Source: Brevundimonas terrae
GTDB lineage: Bacteria; Pseudomonadota; Alphaproteobacteria; Caulobacterales; Caulobacteraceae
Assembly (NCBI RefSeq): GCF_011761985.1
Contig: NZ_JAASQT010000004.1
Span: 124,001-188,000 of the forward strand
Direction: 5' to 3'
DNA: 64,000 nt
The notes below the pieces were generated by a model. It searched no databases. It saw only the letters and a list, made by a program, of their open reading frames with translations, and was not told where the DNA came from. Below are positions 42,099 through 54,685 of the stretch, one piece after another. A program made the translations under genes and the position numbers. Each line of letters opens with the position of its first letter. Positions within the stretch are counted from its first letter, which is position 1.

Positions 42099-44249
42099 AT
42101 GCCAAAGCGCGACACTTCCCCCAGTAACACCAATGCCCTGAATGCATTTGCGCCAGGGTCGGGTCATACGCCTTTTGATGAAGGCAGCGGCAATGCCGGA
42201 GAAACCCAACAGGTCGTCTCCAAGAACGGGGATCATAAGGATGGCCAAACCCATCTGACCGATAATTTCGGTCACCGAATTTCAGACAATCAAAACAGCT
42301 TGAGAGCCGGCGAGCGCGGTCCGACGCTGCTTGAAGATTTTGTTCTGCGCGAGAAAATCTTCCACTTTGATCACGAACGCATTCCCGAGCGCATCGTGCA
42401 TGCCCGTGGCTCGGGTGCACATGGAATTTTCGAAGTGACGCAGGCCATCCCGCATCTGACAAAAGCGGCGTTGTTCCAACAGGCTGGAAATGAATGTCCT
42501 GTCTTTGTTCGCTTTTCTACAGTCGCAGGCGGGGCAGGATCGGTCGATACGCCGAGGGATGTGAGAGGGTTTGCCGTCAAGCTTTATACCGAGCAGGGCA
42601 ATTGGGACCTCGTGGGTAACAACATTCCTGTATTCTTCATTCAGGACGCCATGAAGTTCCCCGACCTCGTCCACTCCGTAAAGATGGAGGCGGATCGAGG
42701 CTACCCGCAGGCCGCATCGGCACACGATACATTCTGGGATTTTATCAGCCTGATGCCCGAGAGCTTGCACACGGTCATGTGGGCCATGTCGGATCGCGGC
42801 ATACCGCGCTCCCTAAGGATGATCGAAGGTTTTGGGGTCCATACTTTCCGAATGGTGAATGCGAAGGGCGAGGGCAAGTTCGTTAAATTCCATTGGAAGC
42901 CGGTGCTGGGTATTCAGAGCACAACATGGGATGAAGCCGTGAAACTGGCGGGGGCCGATCCCGATTTTCATCGTCGTGACCTGTTCGAAGCCATCGAGAA
43001 TGGCGACTATCCGCAATGGGACCTTGGTATTCAGGTTTTCGACGAGGCTTGGGCAGCCAAGCAGGCCTATGATGTTCTCGATGCAACCAAACTGATCCCT
43101 GAGGAAGACATTCCTGTCGAGATCATTGGCCGTATGACCCTGAACCGCAATGTCGATAACTTCTTTGCGGAAACCGAGCAGGCGGCATTCCTTCCGTCCA
43201 ACATCATTCCGGGTATCGATTTTACCAATGACCCGCTGCTGCAAGGGCGGTTGTTCTCGTATCTGGATACGCAAAAGTCACGTCTAGGGACGACCAACTT
43301 CCATCAGATACCCATTAATGCCCCGAAATGCCCGTTCCACAACTTCCAGCGCGACGGGATGATGCAGACGCAGGTGCCGGTTGGCCGCGCCAATTACGAG
43401 CCTAATTCACTGGGGGAGGCGGGCGAGACGACTGGTCCGCGTGCCTGTCCCGAAACTGGCTTTACGTCTTTTACAGCCAATGACGAACGCAATGACGGTT
43501 CAGAAAAGCTGCGGATCCGCGCCGAGGCCTTTGCAGATCACTATAGCCAGCCGCGCCTGTTCTATCGTTCTCAGACCGAAAACGAGCAGGCGCATATTTG
43601 CGCGGCCATTGTCTTCGAGTTGTCCAAGGTGACGTTGGAACATGTGCGCATTCGCCTATTGTCGCGTTTGCGCAATATCGACGAGAGCCTAGCCGAACGC
43701 GTGGCCAATGGTCTGGCGATGAAATTACCGCCCAAGGCCAAGGTGGCCAAGGAACCGGTGGACATGAAAGTCTCCGATGCCCTGTCGATCCAGAAACAGG
43801 CCCGCAAAACGTTCGAGGGTCGTAAGGTCGGCATTCTGTTTGCTGAAGGATCGGACAAGGCCGGTATCGACAAGCTGAAGGGCGAGATTGAAAAGGCGGG
43901 CGGCACCGTGTTTCTGGTGGCTCCGGAAATCGGTACCCTTAAGCTTAAAGGTGGAGAACTGTCTGCCGATGGCCAACTGGCGGGTTCACCCTCTGTGACG
44001 TTTGATGCCATCGCTTCGATTATTATGCCCGATGCGGCGGATAAACTGCTGAAAGATGCGGGCGCGATCCAGTGGTTTGCCGATGCCTATGCCCATTGCA
44101 AAACGATAGGTCACTGTAAGGGAACGCAGGTGCTTTTGGACAAGGCCAATGTCGAAAAGGATGAAGGGGTGGTTCCTTGGGAGGACATGGTCAAGGTTGG
44201 TCCCATTCGCCACTGGAAACGCGAGCCCAAGGTTCGCAATCTGCCATAA
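42099..44249 (+). CDS. katE: Large-subunit catalase, HPII (KatE) type
   Basis: A 716-residue monofunctional haem catalase. Catalytic His lies in [20 protein letters not shown], the substrate-side region in [26 protein letters not shown], and the haem-ligand tyrosine in [16 protein letters not shown]. After the catalase core comes the extra C-terminal flavodoxin/GATase1-like domain ([14 protein letters not shown] to the end) that marks the large clade. Cytoplasmic; ATG 42099 follows GGAGATGAG. Likely general-stress regulated. Confidence 0.96.
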
Positions 44250-44555: not shown

Positions 44556-44585
44556 TGATCTGTTCTTGATGCCGGATCGTAAGAA
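44556..44585 (+). promoter_or_regulatory. RpoE(ECF11)-type promoter for the HIU hydrolase gene
   Basis: TGATCT (44556-44561), 18-bp spacer, TAAGAA (44580-44585). This matches the TGATCC..TAAGA consensus I recall for Rhodobacter sphaeroides RpoE and has the same spacer as the sites before rpoE and the DUF3313 gene. The uraH ATG is 50 bases downstream. Confidence 0.65.
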
Positions 44586-44635
44586 CAAAGCCGTATTTTG
44601 GCTTTGGTTTCGTCGTGTGGCTCAAGGAGATTCAG

Positions 44636-45037
44636 ATGCGCCTTTCTTCCGTTTTTGCGATTGCAGCGGCTTTGTCTTTGTTTGCAACGAGCGCTTTGTC
44701 AGAAGGCATCTCGACACATGTTCTGGATTTGGCGCGCGGCGTGGGCGGAAAAGACGTTCCCGTTACCCTAGAGATCAAACAGGAGGATGGATCGTGGAAG
44801 CAACTGGCGCAGGCCAAAACGGATGAAAATGGGCGTGTGCGATCTTTCGGTGATGATGTTCATGCCGAGGCCGCCGTTTATAAACTGACCTTTGACATGT
44901 CGCAGTATCCAGCTGGGGGCAATGAACCCTTCTTTCCCGAAATCGACGTTGTATTTCGAGTGACCGATCCCATGACCCATTACCACGTGCCTGTAGTGGT
45001 GAGCCCCTATGGATACAGCACATATCGCGGTAACTAA
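44636..45037 (+). CDS. Secreted 5-hydroxyisourate hydrolase (transthyretin-like)
   Basis: A 133-residue HIU hydrolase family protein with an N-terminal signal peptide (to about SALS, residue 22). Active-site residues are present: His28 (STHVLD), Arg67 (GRV), His117 (THYHVP). The diagnostic C-terminal YRGS is YRGN here. No other urate or allantoin gene is near. ATG 44636 follows AAGGAGA. A stress-related rather than purine-catabolic context is suggested by its promoter. Confidence 0.88.
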   Translation: MRLSSVFAIAAALSLFATSALSEGISTHVLDLARGVGGKDVPVTLEIKQEDGSWKQLAQAKTDENGRVRSFGDDVHAEAAVYKLTFDMSQYPAGGNEPFFPEIDVVFRVTDPMTHYHVPVVVSPYGYSTYRGN

Positions 45038-45142
45038 CCGCTATTACAGACGTAAAGAGCGTTCATTCGAAAAGATTTCCAACGAAAGCGCTCTTCGTCG
45101 CTGTGCGAAATTATGAGAATTTGCGCAGTAGGAGATATGTCC

Positions 45143-45687
45143 GGCTGCCAGTTTGGTAGACACCAAGATAAGCTCACTCAGGCTACCCAGTTTCCCGTTC
45201 AAAATCTATGTGGCTGAGGTAACCAAGGGCCGAGTAACGCTGAGTCGGGTTGTAAAAGCACTCGATATAGTCGAACACATCAGCCTTCGCTTGGGCTATC
45301 GATCGGTAGGGCTTTTTCCCGATCCGCTCGGTCTTAAGGGGTGAGAAGAAGTTTTCCATGGCGACATTATCCAAGCAGTTTCCAAACCGCTCATCGAACA
45401 AGTGATCCATTATCTGCCATGAGCCGCTAGAACTGCTCGCTGGTATATTGGCTGCCCTAATACGAGTGATGCAACCGTGCCGATCTTTTCATCATTTCGC
45501 GACCGCTGCGACGGCACGCGTGTCAGCCAGGCATGAAAACCGCTTAGCGAAGCACCGAGCGCAACGCATATCCATGCCACAGACGAGATACCAAGGTACT
45601 TCACGATAAATCTGAACTTCCTTCTCTGCATTCTCGCGCTTCGGTAGGTCAAAACAGCTTATCTCGGTGTCCATCAAACCGGCAGCA
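45143..45687 (-). mobile_element. Internally deleted IS3-family element with terminal inverted repeats
   Basis: 32-bp imperfect terminal inverted repeats lie at 45143-45174 and 45656-45687 (27 of 32 positions match), each ending in GCTGCC(A/G)GTTTG. The 545-bp interior holds only scraps of an IS3-family OrfB on the minus strand, against the roughly 1.2-1.4 kb of a complete element. The orfA region and the central part of the transposase are missing. Confidence 0.8.
45183..45652 (-). pseudogene. IS3-family transposase OrfB remnant
   Basis: The N-terminal piece (45652 down to about 45450) has VAWICVALGASLSGFHAWLTR, matching IS3 OrfB helices. The C-terminal piece (45410-45183) has DNVAMENFFSPLKTERIGKK, YRSIAQAKADVFDYIECFYN and SALGYLSHIDFE, the end of the DDE domain. 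Between them about 140 codons, including most catalytic residues, are deleted, and an in-frame stop plus a frameshift follow a QYTSEQF segment. Not functional. Confidence 0.88.
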
Positions 45688-45731
45688 GGCCAGTTCTAAT
45701 ATGGGCTGTGGAAACCGAAACTGCCTTATGA

Positions 45732-45761
45732 GCATCCGTATGGCCGCATCAAGCGTATTAT
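45732..45761 (+). promoter_or_regulatory. Possible RpoE-type promoter for the DUF2177 gene
   Basis: GCATCC (45732-45737), 18-bp spacer, TATTAT (45756-45761), 22 bases before the ATG. The -35 has only ATCC in common with TGATCC, but the same GCATCC-N18-TA form precedes the amine oxidase gene. It starts 45 bases from the IS remnant edge. Confidence 0.4.
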
Positions 45762-45782
45762 CTAGATAGCTTGGAGATCAAT

Positions 45783-46184
45783 ATGAACATCGCCATCACC
45801 TATGCCATCACGCTAGTGATTTTTGCTATCATTGATACCGTGTGGCTTGGTACAATGGCTGATCGAATCTATCGTCCGTTAATCGGCTCGATGCTTGCGG
45901 ACAATTTTCGTCTGGTACCGGCGATGGTTTTCTACTGCATGTATGCAGGCGCGTTGACTGTGTTTGCTGTCATGCCCGGTCTGAATGCAGATGACTGGAA
46001 GAAGGCCCTCACCTGGGGGGCTTTGTTCGGATTGTTTGCCTATGCAACCTATGATCTGACCAATTTGGCGACGCTGAAAAGCTGGAGCACCAAGCTGGTC
46101 GTGATCGATATTGCATGGGGCGTTGTCGTCAGTGCCGCATCGTCGTCGCTGGCTTGTCTGATGGCGCTGAAACTTCTGAAGTAA
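45783..46184 (+). CDS. DUF2177 family membrane protein
   Basis: A 133-residue protein with four membrane segments and family signatures FAIIDTVWLGTMADRIYRPLIG, FYCMYAGALTVFAV, GALFGLFAYATYDLTNLATLKSW and VIDIAWGVVVSAASS. Function unknown. It converges on the rpoE-chrR-DUF1295 operon with a 3-base gap. ATG 45783 follows GGAGA. Confidence 0.9.
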   Translation: MNIAITYAITLVIFAIIDTVWLGTMADRIYRPLIGSMLADNFRLVPAMVFYCMYAGALTVFAVMPGLNADDWKKALTWGALFGLFAYATYDLTNLATLKSWSTKLVVIDIAWGVVVSAASSSLACLMALKLLK

Positions 46185-46187
46185 TAC

Positions 46188-46991
46188 TCAGCGGGCCGGG
46201 GGGCGCAGAAAGAAGCGGCTGGTGCGGCGAGCATAGTTCGCAAAGGCTTCCGGCCGCGTGCGCTGCATGTGGGTTTCGACCAGCGGCACGCCCGAGACGT
46301 GGTTCAAGATCCAGTACATGTAGAGTGGTGCAATGAAGGCCAGCCATCCCCACGGCCAGTTTCCCGATAGATTAATGGCAAATAGTGGCCAAGCGCACCA
46401 GGTCAGCCATTCGAAGAAATAGTTTGGATGGCGCGACCAGCCCCATAGACCAACATCGCAAATCTGGTGACGCTCTGTGGTGGCGGCTTTGAAAGCCTTC
46501 AGTTGCTGGTCAGCCATGGTCTCCCCCGCAAAAGCGATGAAGAAAGCAGCAATAGCCAGATAGTCCAGCAGGCCGAGTCCTGAAGACGGATTGCGGGCTG
46601 CCAACAGGACCGCGAGTGCCAGAATGCTGGCAGCACCAGCCTGAAGCATCATAAAGCCGAACATCTTGGCGCGGTATGTATTTCCCCATTCGTCGCGCAA
46701 TCTGGCATAGCGGGCATCTTCCTGCTCACCAGCCGCGCGTTTGGCGATATGGGTGCCCAGACGGATGCCCCATATGCCGATCAAAAGAGCGACAACCAGC
46801 TGTCGTGCAGACCAGCCGTCAGGCCCGACAGGAAAAAGACTGATGCCGACACCGGCTACACCCAGTCCATAGGACCAGAACACATCGGCCCAGCCGCCTT
46901 GGCCTGTGCGCATCTGGACGATCCAGGCCGTGCCCATCACCAAAGCGAGAAAGACAACAGCACCGCCCCAGATGGCAATAAGGCTTATCAC
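46188..46991 (-). CDS. DUF1295 membrane protein (steroid 5-alpha-reductase-like)
   Basis: A 267-residue polytopic protein with the C-terminal isoprenylcysteine methyltransferase/steroid reductase-like signature WGWSRHPNYFFEWLTW and HVSGVPLVETHMQRTRPEAFANYARRTSRFFL. GTG 46991 overlaps the chrR stop (GTGA), making it the third gene of the rpoE-chrR operon. A reductase acting on lipids is plausible given the cfa and amine-oxidase genes in the regulon, but is inference. Confidence 0.9.
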   Translation of the reverse strand: MISLIAIWGGAVVFLALVMGTAWIVQMRTGQGGWADVFWSYGLGVAGVGISLFPVGPDGWSARQLVVALLIGIWGIRLGTHIAKRAAGEQEDARYARLRDEWGNTYRAKMFGFMMLQAGAASILALAVLLAARNPSSGLGLLDYLAIAAFFIAFAGETMADQQLKAFKAATTERHQICDVGLWGWSRHPNYFFEWLTWCAWPLFAINLSGNWPWGWLAFIAPLYMYWILNHVSGVPLVETHMQRTRPEAFANYARRTSRFFLRPPAR

Positions 46992-47626
46992 AGGCGCACA
47001 AAGGGCTGGATCAGCCGCCCGACCCAGCCGTCGATTTTGATCTGACCGTCTAGGGCTACAACACACAGGCAAGGTTCGTCGGAGATCACACGTGGCTGGT
47101 GCAGGACGTCGCCGTCGGCTTCTTCTAGATCGCCGACATCGAAACGCTCTGTCTCGGTCGCATAGGCCCCAGAAAGGACGCAGGTCAGCTCCACCCCCCC
47201 GTGAGTGTGTTTGGGCGTCTCGCAGCCAGGGTTGATTTTGAGAAGAATGACACGCGTATCGCCATCACGCGGGGCATGGACGTCACGCACGCGGATACCG
47301 GGGCCGACCCAGCGCCATGGACCCAGAGCGTAACGGCGCAAAGGTTCGGGCAGTTCGCTCATCTCGTTGAGTGGTGGTTGCTGTTCGACCTCGCTGGCGC
47401 AGGCATCCAGCATGGACAAGGTGCGCGTCAGAGCCTGATCCGACATCGCCGCAGGCGCGGCAGTGTCCAGTAGTTCGCCGCCGATGGCCTGTAATTGGCG
47501 TACCCAGATGTCATGGGCCGGGCGCAGCGCCAGATGCGTAGAGACAACAAGGGCTTCCGGTGCGCTGATTGTACCGTTGGCATAGGAAGCCAGTAATTCT
47601 TCGGAAATCATACGGGTCGGGGCCAT
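46988..47626 (-). CDS. chrR: ChrR-family anti-sigma factor with degenerate zinc-binding domain
   Basis: A 212-residue anti-sigma factor of the ECF11 partner family: helical anti-sigma domain (ISEELLASYANGTISAPEALVVSTHLALRP) and C-terminal cupin domain (HTHGGVELTCVLSGAY, VLHQPRV). In Rhodobacter ChrR, four residues (H6, H31, C35, C38) hold zinc in the first domain; aligned by eye, only H31 remains, with Arg and His at the two cysteine positions and no H6. The cupin ligands H, H, E, H are kept. It overlaps rpoE by one base. Confidence 0.88.
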   Translation of the reverse strand: MAPTRMISEELLASYANGTISAPEALVVSTHLALRPAHDIWVRQLQAIGGELLDTAAPAAMSDQALTRTLSMLDACASEVEQQPPLNEMSELPEPLRRYALGPWRWVGPGIRVRDVHAPRDGDTRVILLKINPGCETPKHTHGGVELTCVLSGAYATETERFDVGDLEEADGDVLHQPRVISDEPCLCVVALDGQIKIDGWVGRLIQPFVRL

Positions 47627-48252
47627 TATAAAACGTCCCTCTCTGGTTCAAGCATCTGTCGAAGTTTGGCCATGGCATTGCGTATTCTGGATTTTACTGT
47701 TCCGAGGGGCAGGTCGAGCTGGCTTGCGATTTCGGAATGTGGGCGGCCAAAGAAAAAGGCCATTTGCAACAGTTCGATCTGATGGGGATTCAGTTTGGCC
47801 AGCGCCATACGAACCCTGTGTGCATCTTGTGAACTGGCCAGCAGATCATCCGGACGCGGCACCTCTTCCATATCGAAAGTGATTTCCGGAACGGGGAGGG
47901 GGCGAGAGTCCCGGCGGAACTTGTCCAGTCGCTTGTTGCGCGCAATCGTGAAAATCCACGTGGCAGCCTTGGCCTTGAGCGGATCAAACAGGTCTGCCTT
48001 GCGCCAGACAGTCATCATTGTCTCCTGAGCGAAATCTTCGGCATCGATTTCACTGGCACCGGATCGCATCAGCCAGGCTTTCAGCCGCGGAGCGAAGTGG
48101 TCAAACAATCGTGCGAAGGCCTCGCGATCCCTGTGCAGGGCGACCGCTACAATAAGCTGTTCGTGACGGGTTGTGTCACAGAGCGGGTCGTCTGCTGACA
48201 TACAGCGAGTAGCCTTTGCAGAAACAGGGATTTGCGCGACATCTGTATGCAT
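47626..48252 (-). CDS. rpoE: ECF sigma factor, RpoE/ECF11 type
   Basis: Group 4 sigma factor with region 2 (FARLFDHFAPRLKAWL, EDFAQETMMTVWRKADLFDP, ATWIFTIARNKRLDKFRR) and region 4 (LLQMAFFFGRPHSEIASQLDLPLGTVKSRIRNAMAKLR), co-encoded with a ChrR homologue; the family drives singlet-oxygen responses. ATG 48252 gives 208 residues. The predicted autoregulated promoter places the transcript start near 48251, so the ATG at 48201 (191 residues) may be the true start. Confidence 0.92.
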   Translation of the reverse strand: MHTDVAQIPVSAKATRCMSADDPLCDTTRHEQLIVAVALHRDREAFARLFDHFAPRLKAWLMRSGASEIDAEDFAQETMMTVWRKADLFDPLKAKAATWIFTIARNKRLDKFRRDSRPLPVPEITFDMEEVPRPDDLLASSQDAHRVRMALAKLNPHQIELLQMAFFFGRPHSEIASQLDLPLGTVKSRIRNAMAKLRQMLEPERDVL

Positions 48253-48257
48253 AGACC

Positions 48258-48287
48258 CTGATACGCACACTTAAAATGTTTGGATCA
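48258..48287 (-). promoter_or_regulatory. RpoE-type autoregulatory promoter
   Basis: Minus strand TGATCC (48287-48282), 18-bp spacer, TATCAG (48263-48258). It would drive rpoE-chrR-DUF1295. Its -35 lies only 4 bp from the divergent -35 of the amine oxidase promoter. Confidence 0.7.
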
Positions 48288-48291
48288 CTTC

Positions 48292-48321
48292 GCATCCACC
48301 AAGATGGCTGACGCGTATGAC
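48292..48321 (+). promoter_or_regulatory. RpoE-type promoter for the amine oxidase-cfa operon
   Basis: GCATCC (48292-48297), 18-bp spacer, TATGAC (48316-48321), about 40 bases before the ATG at 48362. Spacing is identical to the rpoE site, while the -35 differs in its first two bases. Confidence 0.5.
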
Positions 48322-48361
48322 AAAAACGAACTGCCTATGACGGCGGTGTTCTGGAGTTGTC

Positions 48362-49699
48362 ATGCCGCCTTTGTCCAATCGTCAATCCGACAAGATGTTG
48401 AATATTGCTGTTGTGGGCTCGGGTATTTCAGCCCTTTCGGCGGCCTGGCTGTTGTCGCAGCGCCATTCGGTAACCCTTTATGAAAAGGCCGATCGACTGG
48501 GCGGACATTCCAACACGATCACGGCATCACTGGCGACGGGCAAGGTTGCGGTCGATACCGGCTTTATCTGCTATAACGATGCGACCTATCCCAATCTAAT
48601 CGCCCTGTTCGATCATCTGGATGTTCCCAGCTGCGAGACGGATATGTCCTTTGCCGTGTCGCGTGACGGCGGGCGTTTCGAATATGCGGCACCGGGCCTT
48701 TTCGCTCAGAAACGCAATATCTTGCAGCCGAAATTTTGGTCGATGTTGCTCGAGATTGTTCGTTTCTATCGCAAGGCCCCGAGCGATCTTGGGGCCTTGG
48801 CGGGGACCGACATTTCCCTTGGCGAGTATCTGCTGAGAGAAGATTATAGTGCGAGCTTTCGCGACGATCATCTTTTGCCCATGGCGGCAGCGATCTGGTC
48901 GTCTCCGACCGAAACCCTGATGGATTATCCGGCGGAAGCCTTCATCCGTTTCTGTATCAACCACGGGCTTTTGAAACTGTCTGACCGGCCTATGTGGAGA
49001 ACGGTTGAGGGGGGCAGCCGCGTCTATGTGGAACGACTTGCGCGTAGTGTATCGCGTATTCTGCTCAACCGTGGCGTCAGCCGTGTCACGCGCACCGACA
49101 ATGGCGTGGAGGTTCACGACAGTGAAGGCGGGGTCGAAACCTATGACCATGTGGTCATAGGCACCCATGCCAATCAGGCCCTTCAAATGCTGGAGGCGCC
49201 ATCTACGGCCGAGCGTCAGCTGTTGGGAGCCTTCAAATACAGCCATAATCTGACGGTTCTTCATACCGATACGAACCTGATGCCGCGTCGCCGTAAGGCG
49301 TGGGCCAGTTGGAACTATATTGGCACCCAAGGCGGGCTGTGTGTCTCCTACTGGATGAACAAATTGCAGGGCCTGCAGGGTCAGGATGTGTTTGTAACCC
49401 TCAACCCTGCACATGCGCCCAGACCGGGGACGCTGCTTTACAGCGAAATCTATGAGCATCCGATCTTTGATGCTGCCGCTATTGCAGCCCAGAAAAAGCT
49501 CTGGAGCCTTCAGGGACAGGGCGGGGTTTGGTTTTGTGGGGCCCACTTTGGTGCAGGCTTTCACGAGGATGGACTACAGTCCGGTCTGGCGGTCGCCGAG
49601 CAGTTGGGCGGCGTGCGCCGTCCATGGTCTGTAGAGAACGAAAGTGGCCGTATCCACGTTTCCTCGCCGAAGGATCAAGCCCTGGAGCAGACAGTGTGA
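48362..49699 (+). CDS. FAD-dependent amine oxidase-like protein
   Basis: A 445-residue flavoprotein with an N-terminal dinucleotide motif VVGSGISALSAAWLLSQ and GGHSNTI, plus a C-terminal FAD motif GVWFCGAHFGAGFHEDGLQSGLAVAEQL. Orthologues are the standard neighbour of DUF1365 and cfa genes in RpoE-ChrR loci, and the group is suspected of modifying membrane fatty acids. ATG 48362 has GGAG; ATG 48395 lies closer to the FAD motif but has a poorer site. Confidence 0.92.
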   Translation: MPPLSNRQSDKMLNIAVVGSGISALSAAWLLSQRHSVTLYEKADRLGGHSNTITASLATGKVAVDTGFICYNDATYPNLIALFDHLDVPSCETDMSFAVSRDGGRFEYAAPGLFAQKRNILQPKFWSMLLEIVRFYRKAPSDLGALAGTDISLGEYLLREDYSASFRDDHLLPMAAAIWSSPTETLMDYPAEAFIRFCINHGLLKLSDRPMWRTVEGGSRVYVERLARSVSRILLNRGVSRVTRTDNGVEVHDSEGGVETYDHVVIGTHANQALQMLEAPSTAERQLLGAFKYSHNLTVLHTDTNLMPRRRKAWASWNYIGTQGGLCVSYWMNKLQGLQGQDVFVTLNPAHAPRPGTLLYSEIYEHPIFDAAAIAAQKKLWSLQGQGGVWFCGAHFGAGFHEDGLQSGLAVAEQLGGVRRPWSVENESGRIHVSSPKDQALEQTV

Positions 49700-50499
49700 G
49701 CACCGCTTCGGCACTCTATTTCGGCAAGGTCATACACAGGCGTTTCCGTCCCAAGGCACATTATCTGTCCTATCGGGTGTTCTGGCTTTTTCTTGATCTG
49801 GAAGAGGTGGACCGGCTGGCCAAACAGTTGAGATTTTTCTCGGTTGGCAGGTTTAACCTTGTCTCGTTTCATCCGCGCGATCATGGCGATGGATCGGATA
49901 CGTCCCTGCGCCAACAGATCACGCGCTATATGGAACGTGCAGGCATCGATCTGGGGCAGGGCGCGGTTCGGTTGCTGACCATGCCGCGTCTATTGGGATA
50001 TGTCTTCAATCCGATCAGTATCTATTATTGCCACCATACAGATGGACGACTTTTGGCGCTGGTCTATGAGGTCACCAGCACCTTCAAGATCCGGCATAGT
50101 TACGTCATTCCGGTGAGCCAAGCAGACAGTGAGCAAGGGCGGTTTGTTCAGTCCGCGGCCAAGGCGCTCTATGTCTCACCTTTCATGGACATGGAGATGG
50201 ACTACAAATTCCGGGGTCATGTGCCGTCGGACATTCTCGACGTCATGATCGATGGTCATGATGTCCAGGGAAAGCTGATCCATGCCGCCATTACAGCTCA
50301 TAAACGTCCTCTCACAGACAGTTCTCTTCTGCGTGCAATAGCCGGTTTCCCGCTGATGACGATGAAGGTCGTCATGGCCATTTATTGGGAGGCTCTGAAG
50401 CTTTGGCTCAAGCGGGTACCGCTGACCCGTCAGCCCTTGCCGGCGGCTGAACAGGTCACCCTTCAAACCCAACCACGGGAGAGCCGTCTTGGTTGGTGA
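49696..50499 (+). CDS. DUF1365 protein
   Basis: A 267-residue protein of the DUF1365 family (LYFGKVIHRRFRPKAHYLSYRVFWLFLDLEE, LTMPRLLGYVFNPISIYYCH, KALYVSPFMDMEMDYKF). Function unknown; co-occurs with amine oxidase and cfa in singlet-oxygen regulons. The start is GTG 49696, overlapping the previous stop (GTGTGA), with GGAG upstream. Confidence 0.92.
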   Translation: MSTASALYFGKVIHRRFRPKAHYLSYRVFWLFLDLEEVDRLAKQLRFFSVGRFNLVSFHPRDHGDGSDTSLRQQITRYMERAGIDLGQGAVRLLTMPRLLGYVFNPISIYYCHHTDGRLLALVYEVTSTFKIRHSYVIPVSQADSEQGRFVQSAAKALYVSPFMDMEMDYKFRGHVPSDILDVMIDGHDVQGKLIHAAITAHKRPLTDSSLLRAIAGFPLMTMKVVMAIYWEALKLWLKRVPLTRQPLPAAEQVTLQTQPRESRLGW

Positions 50500-51985
50500 T
50501 CTCGTGCGTCCCGTTATTTTCTGGTTTCGCCGCGATCTCAGACTTGCAGAAAATCCGGCCCTCACAGCGGCCGTGGCGACAGGAAGGCCAGTGTTGCCGG
50601 TCTATATTTTGGACGATGACGGCGACGGGCACCCGCATGGTGCCGCTTCGCTGTGGTGGCTGGACAAGTCCTTGCGTACGCTTGACGCAGACCTACGCCA
50701 ATGCGGTGGTCGGCTCATACTGAGACGTGGAAATAGTAAGGCTGAACTTCTGCGCTTAATCGAGCAGACGCGAAGTGCTCATGTCTTTATGAACCGCCGG
50801 TTCGAACCGGAAGCCTTCGCCCGCGACGCAGACCTTGCCCATACTTTGAAAGCTGTTGGCGTCGAATGTCATGGGTTTAATGCAAGCCTGCTGGCCAAAC
50901 CGGGCACAGTTCTAAGCGGCGCAGGAAAGCCGTATCGGGTTTTCACCCCTTTCATGAAGGCGCTGCTTCAGACCTTGCCGGAGCGCCCTGCGACGCCTGC
51001 CCCCGACACGGTGATCGTACCGGCGGGACCTGACAGCGACGACATCGACGCATGGGCGCTGCATCCCTCGTCACCCGATTGGTCCCAAGGCTTTGACTGG
51101 ACGCCGGGAGAGGCAGGAGCCACGGCAGTCTTGTCCGTATTTATAAAAAATGCGCTGGGGGATTACGCTGTTGGGCGTGACATTCCTGGCCGTCGCAGCA
51201 CTTCGCGCCTGTCGCCGCACCTGCATTTTGGCGAGATCAGTCCGCGCAGCCTTGTGTGGGCCGTTCGCGCCTCTGCGTCTCAAGGGCATGTCGCCCCAGC
51301 ACAGGCCGACAAGTTCATTGCCGAGATTGTTTGGCGCGAGTTCTCGGCTCACCTGCTTCACCAGTTTCCCTTTATGTCCGAGCGGGCCTTCCGGCCCGAG
51401 TTCGACGCCATGCCTTGGCGACGTGATCCCGAGGGGCTGACGGCGTGGAAAAGCGGGATGACCGGCTATCCCCTGGTCGATGCGGGGATGCGGGAGTTGT
51501 GGGCAACCGGTTGGATGCACAACCGTGTGCGGATGGTGGTTGCCTCCTTTCTGGTCAAGCATCTGTTTATTGACTGGCGCGAGGGCGAGGCCTGGTTCTG
51601 GGACACGCTGGTGGATGCGGACTTGGCCAGCAATGTCCAGAACTGGCAGTGGGTCGCAGGGTCCGGTGCCGACGCTGCACCCTATTTCCGTATCTTCAAC
51701 CCTGTCACACAGGGAGAAAAATTCGATCCCGCTGGACATTATGTACGTCGCTGGATTCCGGAATTACGAGCCTTGCCGGATCGTTGGCTGCATGCGCCCT
51801 GGACGGCTCCCGGCACCGTTCTTTCAGAGGCCGGCGTAAAACTGGGATATACTTACCCGCGACCGATCGTCGATCACAGCCAAGCACGCGCAAGAGCATT
51901 AGAGGCACTGAAAGTCGTCTCTTCGCGTTCAAGGGATGGAGAGCAGAATGGTGTGTTTATGCGCGAGGGGATTGTGAGGCCATGA
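50489..51985 (+). CDS. phrB: Deoxyribodipyrimidine photolyase (class I)
   Basis: Blue-light repair of cyclobutane pyrimidine dimers (498 aa). N-terminal antenna domain (VIFWFRRDLRLAENPAL) and C-terminal FAD domain (GRRSTSRLSPHLHFGEISPR, EIVWREFSAHLL, MHNRVRMVVASFLVK, DADLASNVQNWQWVAGSGADAAPYFRIFNP). The start is TTG 50489 after GGGAGAG, 11 bases inside DUF1365; GTG 50504 is an alternative. Being in the RpoE operon fits the known photolyase of the Rhodobacter regulon. Confidence 0.95.
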   Translation: MVGDLVRPVIFWFRRDLRLAENPALTAAVATGRPVLPVYILDDDGDGHPHGAASLWWLDKSLRTLDADLRQCGGRLILRRGNSKAELLRLIEQTRSAHVFMNRRFEPEAFARDADLAHTLKAVGVECHGFNASLLAKPGTVLSGAGKPYRVFTPFMKALLQTLPERPATPAPDTVIVPAGPDSDDIDAWALHPSSPDWSQGFDWTPGEAGATAVLSVFIKNALGDYAVGRDIPGRRSTSRLSPHLHFGEISPRSLVWAVRASASQGHVAPAQADKFIAEIVWREFSAHLLHQFPFMSERAFRPEFDAMPWRRDPEGLTAWKSGMTGYPLVDAGMRELWATGWMHNRVRMVVASFLVKHLFIDWREGEAWFWDTLVDADLASNVQNWQWVAGSGADAAPYFRIFNPVTQGEKFDPAGHYVRRWIPELRALPDRWLHAPWTAPGTVLSEAGVKLGYTYPRPIVDHSQARARALEALKVVSSRSRDGEQNGVFMREGIVRP

Positions 51986-53202
51986 CCACGACCTATTACG
52001 ATGAACAAAAGCGGGTAGCTTCTTCGCCCGTTCTCAATCTGTTGTTGCGCCTGTTGTCCTCGAACTGGACGTGGGGCCACCTCACCATTTGTCTGCCTGA
52101 TGGTACGGTCCACCAGCTAGAGGGTCGTGTAGAAGGCCATGCGGCTGTCCTGCGCATTCGCGACGCACGTTTTGCCCGTCGCGTGCTGAAAAGCGGGGAT
52201 ATCGGCTTTGCAGAGGGTTACATAGAAGGGGAGTGGGACAGCCCTAACCTGCCGGTTTTGCTGGAGACTTTGGTCAATAATTATGACCACATTCGGCGCC
52301 TTTTTGACGGCAATGTCTTGATGCAGGCCTTCAACTGGTTGGTCCACCGTTTCAATCGCAATAGCCGCAGTGGATCGCGTCGCAACATCCATGCCCATTA
52401 TGATCTGGGCAATGAATTCTACAGCGCCTGGCTGGATAGTTCGATGACCTATTCATCGGCTCGTTATAGCCGCGAGGGGCTGTCGCTTCAGGACGCACAG
52501 AAAGAAAAATACGCCTCTCTGGCTCGGGTGATGGATCTCAATGCCGGTCAGACAGTGCTGGAAATCGGCTGCGGTTGGGGAGGTTTTGCCGAATATGCTG
52601 CACGCGAAGTGGGCGCAAAGGTTACAGGCATCACCATCTCGCAAGAGCAGTATGATTTTGCGCGCCGCCGTATTTTTGAAGCCGGATTATCAGAGCGGGC
52701 CGACATTCAGTTGATCGACTATCGCGATGTCGATGGGCGCTTTGATCGCGTGGCCTCTATCGAGATGTTCGAGGCGGTCGGTCGGGAGTACTGGCCGGTC
52801 TATTTCCAGAAAATACATCAGGTTCTAAAACCTGAGGGACGTGCCGGATTGCAGATCATCACCATTCAAGATGATCTGTTCGAAGACTATCAGGCACGTA
52901 CAGATTTTATCCAGAAATATGTCTTCCCCGGCGGCACGTTACCTTCCGAGCACGTCTTGGCTAGCGTAATTCAACAGTCAGGGTTTCACCAGGACGAGGT
53001 CCTGCGTTTTGGACGTGATTATGCCGACACGCTTTCAGAGTGGAGCAAACGTTTTGAAAGCTCATGGCGCATGATCGAAGCCAGCAACCCGAAATTCGAT
53101 CAACGTTTTAGGCGCTTGTGGTTGTTCTATCTCGCCTATTGCGAGGCGGGTTTTCGTTCCGCCCGAACAGACGTCATCCAGGTCGGATTAAGTGCCAGAT
53201 AG
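51982..53202 (+). CDS. cfa: Cyclopropane-fatty-acyl-phospholipid synthase
   Basis: SAM-dependent methyltransferase (406 aa) forming cyclopropane or related modified fatty acids. SAM motif VLEIGCGWGGFAEYAA (193-208), GITISQEQYDFA, HYDLGNEFYSAWLD and SIEMFEAVGREYWPVYF are diagnostic. ATG 51982 overlaps the phrB stop and follows GAGG. Last gene of the four-gene operon; in Rhodobacter the equivalent gene belongs to the RpoE regulon. Confidence 0.95.
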   Translation: MTTTYYDEQKRVASSPVLNLLLRLLSSNWTWGHLTICLPDGTVHQLEGRVEGHAAVLRIRDARFARRVLKSGDIGFAEGYIEGEWDSPNLPVLLETLVNNYDHIRRLFDGNVLMQAFNWLVHRFNRNSRSGSRRNIHAHYDLGNEFYSAWLDSSMTYSSARYSREGLSLQDAQKEKYASLARVMDLNAGQTVLEIGCGWGGFAEYAAREVGAKVTGITISQEQYDFARRRIFEAGLSERADIQLIDYRDVDGRFDRVASIEMFEAVGREYWPVYFQKIHQVLKPEGRAGLQIITIQDDLFEDYQARTDFIQKYVFPGGTLPSEHVLASVIQQSGFHQDEVLRFGRDYADTLSEWSKRFESSWRMIEASNPKFDQRFRRLWLFYLAYCEAGFRSARTDVIQVGLSAR

Positions 53203-53247
53203 CAGATCTTCTCATGAAGAATAGCCGGGCGCTTTCGAGGCTTACGA

Positions 53248-53277
53248 TGATCCACTTTTCCGCTGCCTGCGTAAATT
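53248..53277 (+). promoter_or_regulatory. RpoE-type promoter for the DUF3313 lipoprotein gene
   Basis: TGATCC (53248-53253), 18-bp spacer, TAAATT (53272-53277). The -35 and spacer match the rpoE autoregulatory site exactly. The ATG at 53299 is about 15 bases after the predicted start of transcription. Confidence 0.65.
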
Positions 53278-53298: not shown

Positions 53299-54087
53299 AT
53301 GATTTGCAAGGCCATCAAACTTGTAACGGCGCTGGGGTGTGTGACTGCGCTGGCAGCTTGCGCGACTGCAGAAGTCTACCCCGGCTCTGGTTTTCTCTCG
53401 AGCTATGAGGGACTGGAAGAACGCACCGATGTGGTGAGAGCCTCTGTTCTACAGCGGCGGGACGAGGCGTTGGTTTCTTCTATCGAGCGGGTCTGGGTGG
53501 CTCCCGCAGAGATATTTGGTGAAGTTGATCGTACGCTCTCAGAAGAAGAGCGTCGTATGGTTCTCACAGAAGTGGACCGTCAGCTCTGTTACGAATTGAG
53601 CGAGCGCTTTGAAATTGCTGAGCAGCGTGACGCTCATTCTGCCCTTGTTCGGGTAGGCGTGACCCGCATGGAGTCCACGGATCAGGCGGGGTCTGTTGTC
53701 GCGGCAACGGCAAATTTCTTTATCCCCGGTCCGATTAAAGTGAGGGCACCAATAGGTCTCGGTGGTCTTGGAGCCGAAGCAGAATTGTTGATGCCAGACG
53801 GCGTACAGGCAGCGGCGATAGTTTGGCGTCGTGATGCAATGGCGGTCGGAACGGACAAGCCCTCACTGTCAAGGATCGGTGACGCTCACCAGCTCGCAGA
53901 ACCCTTGGGGGATATGGTAGCTGAAGCTTTTTCTTCCGAAGTTCGTGATGACCATGAAAATGTTTCTAACGCCCCCTGCAAACGTTTTGGCCCGCGCATA
54001 CGCCCAGAAGGGTTTATTATAGGAATAACAACAGGACTCTATCAGCCTGAATTAAGTGGAGGTAAAACTGACAGCGACCCGGAGTGA
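53299..54087 (+). CDS. DUF3313 family lipoprotein
   Basis: A 262-residue lipoprotein with signal peptide and lipobox LAACA (cysteine near residue 21), then EVYPGSGFLSSYEGLEER, LTEVDRQLCYELSERFEI and GLGGLGAEAELL typical of DUF3313. It would be anchored in the periplasm or outer membrane. Function unknown. ATG 53299 follows GGGAGAGACGGG. Likely a member of the RpoE regulon. Confidence 0.88.
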   Translation: MICKAIKLVTALGCVTALAACATAEVYPGSGFLSSYEGLEERTDVVRASVLQRRDEALVSSIERVWVAPAEIFGEVDRTLSEEERRMVLTEVDRQLCYELSERFEIAEQRDAHSALVRVGVTRMESTDQAGSVVAATANFFIPGPIKVRAPIGLGGLGAEAELLMPDGVQAAAIVWRRDAMAVGTDKPSLSRIGDAHQLAEPLGDMVAEAFSSEVRDDHENVSNAPCKRFGPRIRPEGFIIGITTGLYQPELSGGKTDSDPE

Positions 54088-54245: not shown

Positions 54246-54422
54246 TCACCAAGCCTTGTGCTTCGCAGCGCCCGCCTCGACCGCCTTCAGGAGGGTGTCA
54301 TTGGCAAGGTGGCTATAGCGTTGTGCGGATTGGACACTTGAGTGGCCCAGCACCTTGTCGACTGCGAACAGATCTACCCCACTGTTGACCATGAAGGACG
54401 CCGCCGAGTGGCGGAGATCGTG
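54246..54422 (-). pseudogene. Tyrosine recombinase (phage integrase) C-terminal remnant
   Basis: The minus strand codes for HDLRHSAASFMVNSGVDLF, VLGHSSVQSAQRYSHLAND and a short tail ending in a stop at 54246. It carries the HxxR box, LGH motif and catalytic tyrosine (RYSHL) of the tyrosine recombinases. Only about 58 codons remain: upstream sequence is AT-rich and unrelated, and no start is near. It marks a lost integrated element. Confidence 0.85.
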
Positions 54423-54685
54423 TGTACTTACTGATGTAATTGTCGTTGAAGTACGATTGACGATTATTCGTTTTATCGTTGTGTAATATATGGATATTAA
54501 TTAATATTCGAAAATCCAGTTAAATAATAATATCTTTTTTGAATTGTATGAGGTATAAACGTTTTGTCGAACATCTCTGCGCAACGCTCTTTCTTTTATG
54601 CTGTGCATTGAGATCTTCCGTTTCCCTAGACCCCGACGGCCTCTGAATTTTTTGGATGGTCTTATTTTTTACGGAGGTCATGGAA
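54423..54685 (+). other. AT-rich leader region of the cold-shock gene
   Basis: About 260 bases, clearly more AT-rich than the surroundings, without a convincing ORF. It could hold a long structured 5' untranslated region as in other cspA-type genes; TTGACG near 54457 is a possible -35, but no clear -10 follows at standard spacing. Confidence 0.35.

Follow-up and report, generated by a model that had tools for sequence, protein, structure and literature searches.

The window analyzed here is a 64-kb stretch of the Brevundimonas terrae genome, within which a cluster of 9.5 kb is organized around rpoE and chrR. rpoE encodes an extracytoplasmic function (ECF) sigma factor with the PF04542 and PF04545 domains (the query of this profile search started one codon inside the open reading frame [ORF]), and it adjoins a gene for a ChrR-family anti-sigma factor, which scored 219 bits with TIGR02451 (cut-off, 124.5) and 371 bits with NF051881 (cut-off, 300). 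The surrounding genes are predicted to form five transcription units: hiuH; a DUF2177 gene; rpoE-chrR-DUF1295; an amine oxidase-DUF1365-photolyase-CMAS unit; and a gene for a DUF3313 lipoprotein (Table 1). A sequence-only reading of this DNA had described a compact RpoE-ChrR regulon here, and the protein families together with a putative autoregulatory promoter upstream of rpoE bear out that assignment. Its count of five units also stood, in the sense of five promoters; the photolyase and CMAS genes have no promoter of their own, as the four genes from amine oxidase to CMAS overlap at their ends and thus appear to constitute one operon. Judged from the sequence, the cluster is very probably an ECF11 (RpoE-ChrR) photo-oxidative/peroxide stress regulon with five sigma-E promoters.

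All five sites claimed earlier are present and resemble ECF11 promoters. Four lie where they had been placed; the third occupies 48260-48287 instead of beginning at 48258. Four sites precede a start codon by 23 to 52 nucleotides (nt) (hiuH, 52 nt to ATG 44636; DUF2177, 23 nt to ATG 45783; amine oxidase, 42 nt to ATG 48362; lipoprotein, 23 nt to ATG 53299), which agrees with the proposed 15 to 60 bases. The rpoE site falls outside that range, as its −10 element is only 7 nt from the first ATG (48252), the next in-frame ATG being at 48201; thus, either the rpoE mRNA would have almost no leader, or translation begins at a more internal codon. Sigma-E promoters of Rhodobacter sphaeroides are of the TGATCC-N18-TA type. 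The looser ATC(C/T)-N18-TA, by which the regulon had been defined, failed as a defining motif, since it occurs at background density (29 matches in the window versus 25.9 expected from shuffles). Common to all five sites is a CG directly before the TA, and the fuller pattern has 5 matches in the window versus 0.17 expected from shuffles; this enrichment is partly circular, as the CG-extended pattern was taken from the five sites themselves. As a more independent test, we scored both strands of the window with a weight matrix built from 54 relatives' sites, none of this genome; because ATCY-N16-CGTA had served to choose these training sites, the matrix favors that form. Ranks 1 to 5 were exactly the five sites, with the next score at 13.1. 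Because 0.43 matches scoring at least 14 are expected per 64 kb (60 simulated sequences), the hiuH site (14.1) is not significant by score alone, while the four others are strong.

The sites are also placed as promoters should be in other genomes. Among relatives, 54 of 55 chrR loci have the rpoE site, and the remaining locus is interrupted by a contig end; other Caulobacteraceae likewise have sites before rpoE and before the amine oxidase, DUF2177, and DUF3313 genes. A survey covered the 20-kb surroundings of chrR at 20 loci. All or part of the order DUF2177-DUF1295-chrR-rpoE / amine oxidase-DUF1365-(photolyase)-CMAS is found again there. A site of its own precedes the amine oxidase gene in 12 of 15 cases, the CMAS gene in 3 of 11, and the DUF2177 gene in 5 of 10, namely, all five stand-alone copies and none of the five copies inside the chrR operon; no such site was seen in these loci before DUF1365 (0/15), chrR (0/20), or the photolyase gene (0/1). 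Thus, the sites are located where transcripts should begin, and the within-operon genes serve as a natural negative control. The chrR locus, which 59 of 131 genus genomes carry, is patchily distributed and has probably often been gained or lost; one relative carries two chrR copies on one contig (genome G147).

Over the 2.94 Mb of the genome, 14 sites match the tight form of the pattern, including the 5 of the cluster (about 7.8 expected by scaling the window shuffles); a second form, which does not cover the hiuH variant, matches 24, including 4 in the cluster (about 15.6 expected by scaling). Outside the cluster there are 9 and 20 sites, respectively, three of them common to both forms. This outside count is near the shuffle expectation and falls mostly within ORFs, which indicates that the predicted regulon is compact, as had been claimed; being confined to one cluster, it makes the genome easy to study. 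Candidate members elsewhere were rejected by a crude ORF inspection made without annotation, as the sites found outside are contained in longer ORFs or are not followed by a plausible start; at five of them, a short or overlapping ORF starts within 150 nt, which we read as the shadow of a longer ORF. A site located where a murA-like gene ends, with the next ORF 66 nt further on (C2:395955), is a candidate exception and may mark a further member.

The amine oxidase operon points to furan fatty acids. In R. sphaeroides, RSP1091, RSP1090 (DUF1365), and RSP2144 are described as UfaD, UfaO, and UfaM, with methyl-furan fatty acids as products, and RPA2571, RPA2570, and RPA2569 of Rhodopseudomonas palustris as their homologues (PMC7380195); the core ECF11 regulon is reported to include furan fatty acid genes, on which the turnover of ChrR in the presence of singlet oxygen depends (PMC6852236). 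The amine oxidase, DUF1365, and CMAS genes match ufaD-ufaO-(ufaM) in family and order, and the DUF1365 gene adjoins an amine oxidase-like gene beside rpoE-chrR, as expected of the furan pathway. R. palustris ufaD-ufaO-ufaM has the identical order of amine oxidase-like, DUF1365, and methyltransferase genes (PMC7380195), with the difference that in B. terrae the photolyase gene stands between ufaO and the methyltransferase gene, and that function here is predicted only. The CMAS gene had been called cfa. It is indeed a CMAS-family member of the operon, and the sole full-length CMAS match in the genome, but its identity as Cfa is in doubt, as the protein falls below the curated Cfa cut-offs (282 bits, with 400 needed). 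Considering its family and position, it may instead be UfaM, the third gene of the pathway. Altogether, a regulon core of amine oxidase, DUF1365, photolyase, and CMAS is supported.

While this kind of regulon is already known, its most interesting part here is the anti-sigma factor, a variant bearing on the model in which a zinc finger is the sensor. R. sphaeroides ChrR is described as binding zinc through H6, H31, C35, and C38 of its anti-sigma domain and through H141, H143, E147, and H177 of its cupin domain (PMC6852236). In an alignment with PDB 2z2s_B, the window ChrR has M6, H31, R35, and H38 and thus lacks the zinc anti-sigma (ZAS) signature of H-x3-C-x2-C with an N-terminal His, while its cupin domain retains the HxH, E, and H ligands as H140, H142, E146, and H176. 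The protein shares 98% identity with a Brevundimonas sp. protein named as a ChrR family anti-sigma-E factor. The predicted structure of the window ChrR matches 2q1z_B with a template modeling (TM) score of 0.78 by target length; the ChrR fold is kept. Among 56 aligned ChrR loci (window included), 44 of one type are without C35 and C38, 43 of these also without H6, whereas the remaining 12 keep all four anti-sigma ligands; the cupin ligands are kept in all 56. One branch with support of 100/100 splits Cys-less from Cys-bearing ChrR in a tree without an outgroup root. From 525 database homologues we took the best 120; neither cysteine occurs in any of the 119 that were parsed, a set that overlaps with the loci. 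With NF051881 (cut-off, 300), six Cys-less representatives scored 330 to 382 bits and four Cys-bearing ones 144 to 165. ChrR of Caulobacter vibrioides also exceeds this cut-off and is thus presumably Cys-less, as judged by its family membership and not by inspection of its sequence.

The regulon does not appear to have followed this change. Three Cys-bearing relatives within the same family (loci L033, L034, and L042 in genomes G076, G092, and G109) have the same promoter type and gene set, so the zinc finger would have been lost (or gained) while the regulon stayed. In the cupin domain, C186 and C188 do not vary among 24 aligned proteins. The cadmium response of Caulobacter involves two conserved cysteines of ChrR (as cited in PMC3511200), and C186/C188 are plausibly that pair. 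Given an anti-sigma domain without a Cys zinc finger, sensing most likely resides in the cupin metal site and C186/C188. We infer that ChrR binds sigma-E zinc free, and we lean, by a modest degree, toward a broader proposal: that the ECF11 anti-sigma factor of Caulobacteraceae, probably Caulobacter ChrR included, works without a zinc finger, which would then be needed neither for holding sigma-E nor as the general singlet-oxygen sensor, the cupin metal site and the nearby Cys pair being the sensor while promoters and targets are unchanged. Anti-sigma domains of ChrR's class without the zinc motif, and mixed groups, are already described (PMC7406223); in the literature searched, we found no earlier mention of missing cysteines in Caulobacter ChrR, and one may exist. 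Accounts of how ChrR senses singlet oxygen differ: a model-peptide study proposed the anti-sigma zinc finger as the sensor, with its role "under debate" (PMC6432622), recent work reports a critical role for the zinc-finger cysteines (PMC11976125), and others favor the cupin domain (PMC3818230). A large natural Cys-less clade with the same promoters and targets offers a ready-made test.

Cys-less ChrR might still hold zinc in its anti-sigma domain through replaced ligands, which in the window protein would be H31 and H38. H31 is kept in all 44 members of the clade, and the window protein does have H38; however, position 38 is N in 32 of the 44 and T in 8, position 35 is R in 41, and position 6 is not His in 43. 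Since positions 6, 35, and 38 vary in this way, there is no common ligand set, and we consider zinc retention highly unlikely. A second alternative concerns the promoters, in that the five sites could be read by several ECF factors and not by ECF11 alone. The DUF3313 gene is informative here. Counting the window, 32 of 54 loci have a site upstream of its orthologue, versus 0.22 expected, so the lipoprotein, which had been proposed as a less expected member, is a real and conserved addition to the regulon. In five of 19 ChrR-lacking genomes (L183, L188, L189, L190, and L191), the motif is kept near −70 before DUF3313; four of them have only a 34 to 35% identical sigma factor and the fifth has none at an E value of 1e-15. 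Another factor may thus read a similar motif. A search for ECF11-like sigma factors in 20 genomes classed as ChrR lacking, two of which do have ChrR (G092 and G000), gave best matches of 31 to 38% identity in 19 and none in one. Nonetheless, presence of the DUF3313 site tracks ChrR (27 of 35 ChrR-bearing versus 5 of 19 ChrR-lacking genomes), and no site is stronger than the promoter of the sigma factor gene itself, which is conserved across the relatives' chrR loci. Shared use of all five sites is therefore, in our judgment, improbable.

The membership of hiuH is less certain than that of the other units. Its product is a full-length enzyme of the 5-hydroxyisourate (HIU) hydrolase family (TIGR02962, 113 bits with a cut-off of 87.45; 97 bits with the NF011610 equivalog, which needs 217). 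HIU hydrolases carry a C-terminal YRGS; the C terminus is YRGN here and in the close homologues listed, and YRGS in PDB chains 2igl and 2g2n. The core regulon could consist of four promoters, with the hiuH site a chance match and the gene moved in by rearrangement. In line with this, the site has the lowest matrix score, at a level where a chance match per window is not rare, it occurs in just 2 of 19 close loci (window included; 0.04 expected), the tight pattern is absent upstream in 27 of 27 distant HIU hydrolase loci, and an IS3-type transposase remnant separates hiuH from DUF2177. On the other hand, the site is the window's best match after the four strong ones and is suitably spaced from the start codon, and the chance of a site in hiuH's own 200-nt upstream region is 0.002. 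The other close homologue with a site is that of G137, at −54 and at another locus, though this site is not conserved in the sisters of G137; only three hiuH loci came from named relatives. Moreover, a hiuH homologue is present in 15 of 131 genus genomes, and 14 of these 15 have ChrR, compared with 59 of 131 overall (kinship ignored). We regard the chance match as a possibility with clearly the lesser weight, and hiuH as probably belonging to the regulon here, as a lineage-specific member. The suggestion of a secreted HIU hydrolase in the regulon thus held as to the presence of a site, but that site is the poorest and recurs in 1 of 18 other close loci.

Several points weigh against the sigma-E regulon as described here. 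In addition to the motif kept without ChrR, the hiuH site is statistically marginal and poorly conserved, DUF1295 has its own site in one of eight relatives, and the Fisher test relating the DUF3313 site to ChrR ignores kinship. The genome-wide density check suggested earlier gave a mixed outcome: against the shuffle agreement outside the cluster, reversed-pattern controls were lower than the counts (1 versus 14 for the tight form and 4 versus 24 for the second form), so a modest excess of outside sites is possible. The CMAS gene may encode Cfa and not UfaM. Dependence on sigma-E, the inducing signal, and the enzyme functions are given as predictions.

If the sigma-E regulon is organized as proposed, ChrR would keep sigma-E in the cytoplasm, its anti-sigma domain holding the sigma factor without a Cys zinc finger, until oxidants, sensed via the cupin metal site and C186/C188, inactivate it. 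Released sigma-E would then transcribe its own operon and the targets. The UfaD/UfaO/(UfaM)-like enzymes would alter the fatty acids of the membrane, and they may in turn influence the turnover of ChrR, as they do in Rhodobacter; the photolyase would repair DNA, and the lipoprotein and HIU hydrolase would act in the envelope. The sigma-E-ChrR system of R. sphaeroides likewise has rpoE-chrR, ufaD-ufaO nearby, a sigma-E-controlled photolyase, and the cupin zinc ligands (PMC6852236, PMC7380195, PMC3818230). It differs in that ChrR here is without the anti-sigma ligands C35, C38, and H6, that the photolyase and CMAS genes lie within the ufaD-ufaO operon, and that DUF2177, DUF1295, DUF3313, and hiuH are added. 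Rhodobacter had been named for comparison, but Caulobacter is the closer model. C. crescentus/vibrioides sigma-E-ChrR has ChrR of the same curated family, NF051881, and responds to singlet oxygen, organic peroxide, cadmium, and ultraviolet A (as cited in PMC3818230). In C. crescentus strains, in contrast to the window, the ufaD/ufaO homologues are apart from rpoE-chrR, whereas they are adjacent in Caulobacter sp. K31 (PMC3818230). For hiuH, a parallel exists in Escherichia coli, whose periplasmic HiuH (hiuH-msrPQ, HprSR/CusSR) is an HIU hydrolase likewise under oxidant and copper control (PMC9302797); control there is through two-component systems, while here it is predicted to be through an ECF sigma factor, and hiuH is not beside msrPQ.

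Table 1. Genes and predicted promoters of the rpoE-chrR cluster, in window coordinates
Feature	Position	Strand	Remarks
ECF11-type promoter of hiuH	44556..44583	+	TGATCT-N18-TAAG; matrix rank 5, score 14.1; weakest of five
hiuH, secreted 5-hydroxyisourate hydrolase (transthyretin-like)	44636..45037	+	PF00576, 113.6 bits; TIGR02962 equivalog passed; signal peptide by eye
ECF11-type promoter of DUF2177 gene	45732..45759	+	GCATCC-N18-TATT; matrix rank 3, score 17.7
DUF2177 membrane protein	45783..46184	+	PF09945, 151.8 bits
DUF1295 membrane protein, last in rpoE-chrR operon	46188..46991	-	PF06966, 206.3 bits; GTG start overlapping chrR stop
chrR, anti-sigma factor: helical anti-sigma domain without zinc-finger cysteines, and cupin domain	46988..47626	-	NF051881, 371 bits (cut-off 300)
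rpoE, ECF sigma factor, regions 2 and 4; start codon uncertain	47626..48252	-	PF04542, PF04545; translation
ECF11-type autoregulatory promoter of rpoE-chrR-DUF1295	48260..48287	-	TGATCC-N18-TATC; matrix rank 1, score 21.1
ECF11-type promoter of amine oxidase operon, divergent from rpoE	48292..48319	+	GCATCC-N18-TATG; matrix rank 4, score 16.5
Flavin amine oxidase-like protein, UfaD-like	48362..49699	+	PF01593; RSP1091 counterpart by family and position
DUF1365 protein, UfaO family, RSP1090 counterpart	49696..50499	+	PF07103, 264 bits
DNA photolyase/cryptochrome family protein	50489..51985	+	PF03441, PF00875
CMAS-family S-adenosylmethionine (SAM) methyltransferase, UfaM or Cfa	51982..53202	+	PF02353, 279.7 bits
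ECF11-type promoter of DUF3313 lipoprotein	53248..53275	+	TGATCC-N18-TAAA; matrix rank 2, score 20.5
DUF3313 lipoprotein	53299..54087	+	Lipobox LAAC by eye; PelC/TraT-like fold predicted

Lipocalin genes keep company with several of these genes. Of the 15 genus genomes with hiuH, 8 have a lipocalin gene immediately before it, and in a ninth a lipocalin gene is 0.8 kb downstream; a secreted HIU hydrolase gene after a Blc-type lipocalin gene is a recurrent pairing (L125 to L131, L133, and L138). This genome's own lipocalin gene was considered as a member and rejected, as it has no site upstream. A Phenylobacterium locus has an ECF11-type site before a lipocalin-like gene 1.3 kb upstream of its HIU hydrolase gene, and within relatives' clusters a lipocalin gene (L045) or the end of one (L046) lies just before DUF3313. 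These associations among hiuH, lipocalin, and DUF3313 hint at a shared stress context.

Directly upstream of hiuH is a large catalase gene (42099-44249, + strand), with no ECF11-type site for it among the window matches. The IS3-type remnant (rve_2), at 45186-45488 on the - strand between hiuH and DUF2177, separates hiuH and katE from the core cluster. A tyrosine recombinase remnant (Phage_integrase) is found at 54249-54500 on the - strand, just past the DUF3313 gene, so that mobile-element debris is present on both flanks of the core cluster.

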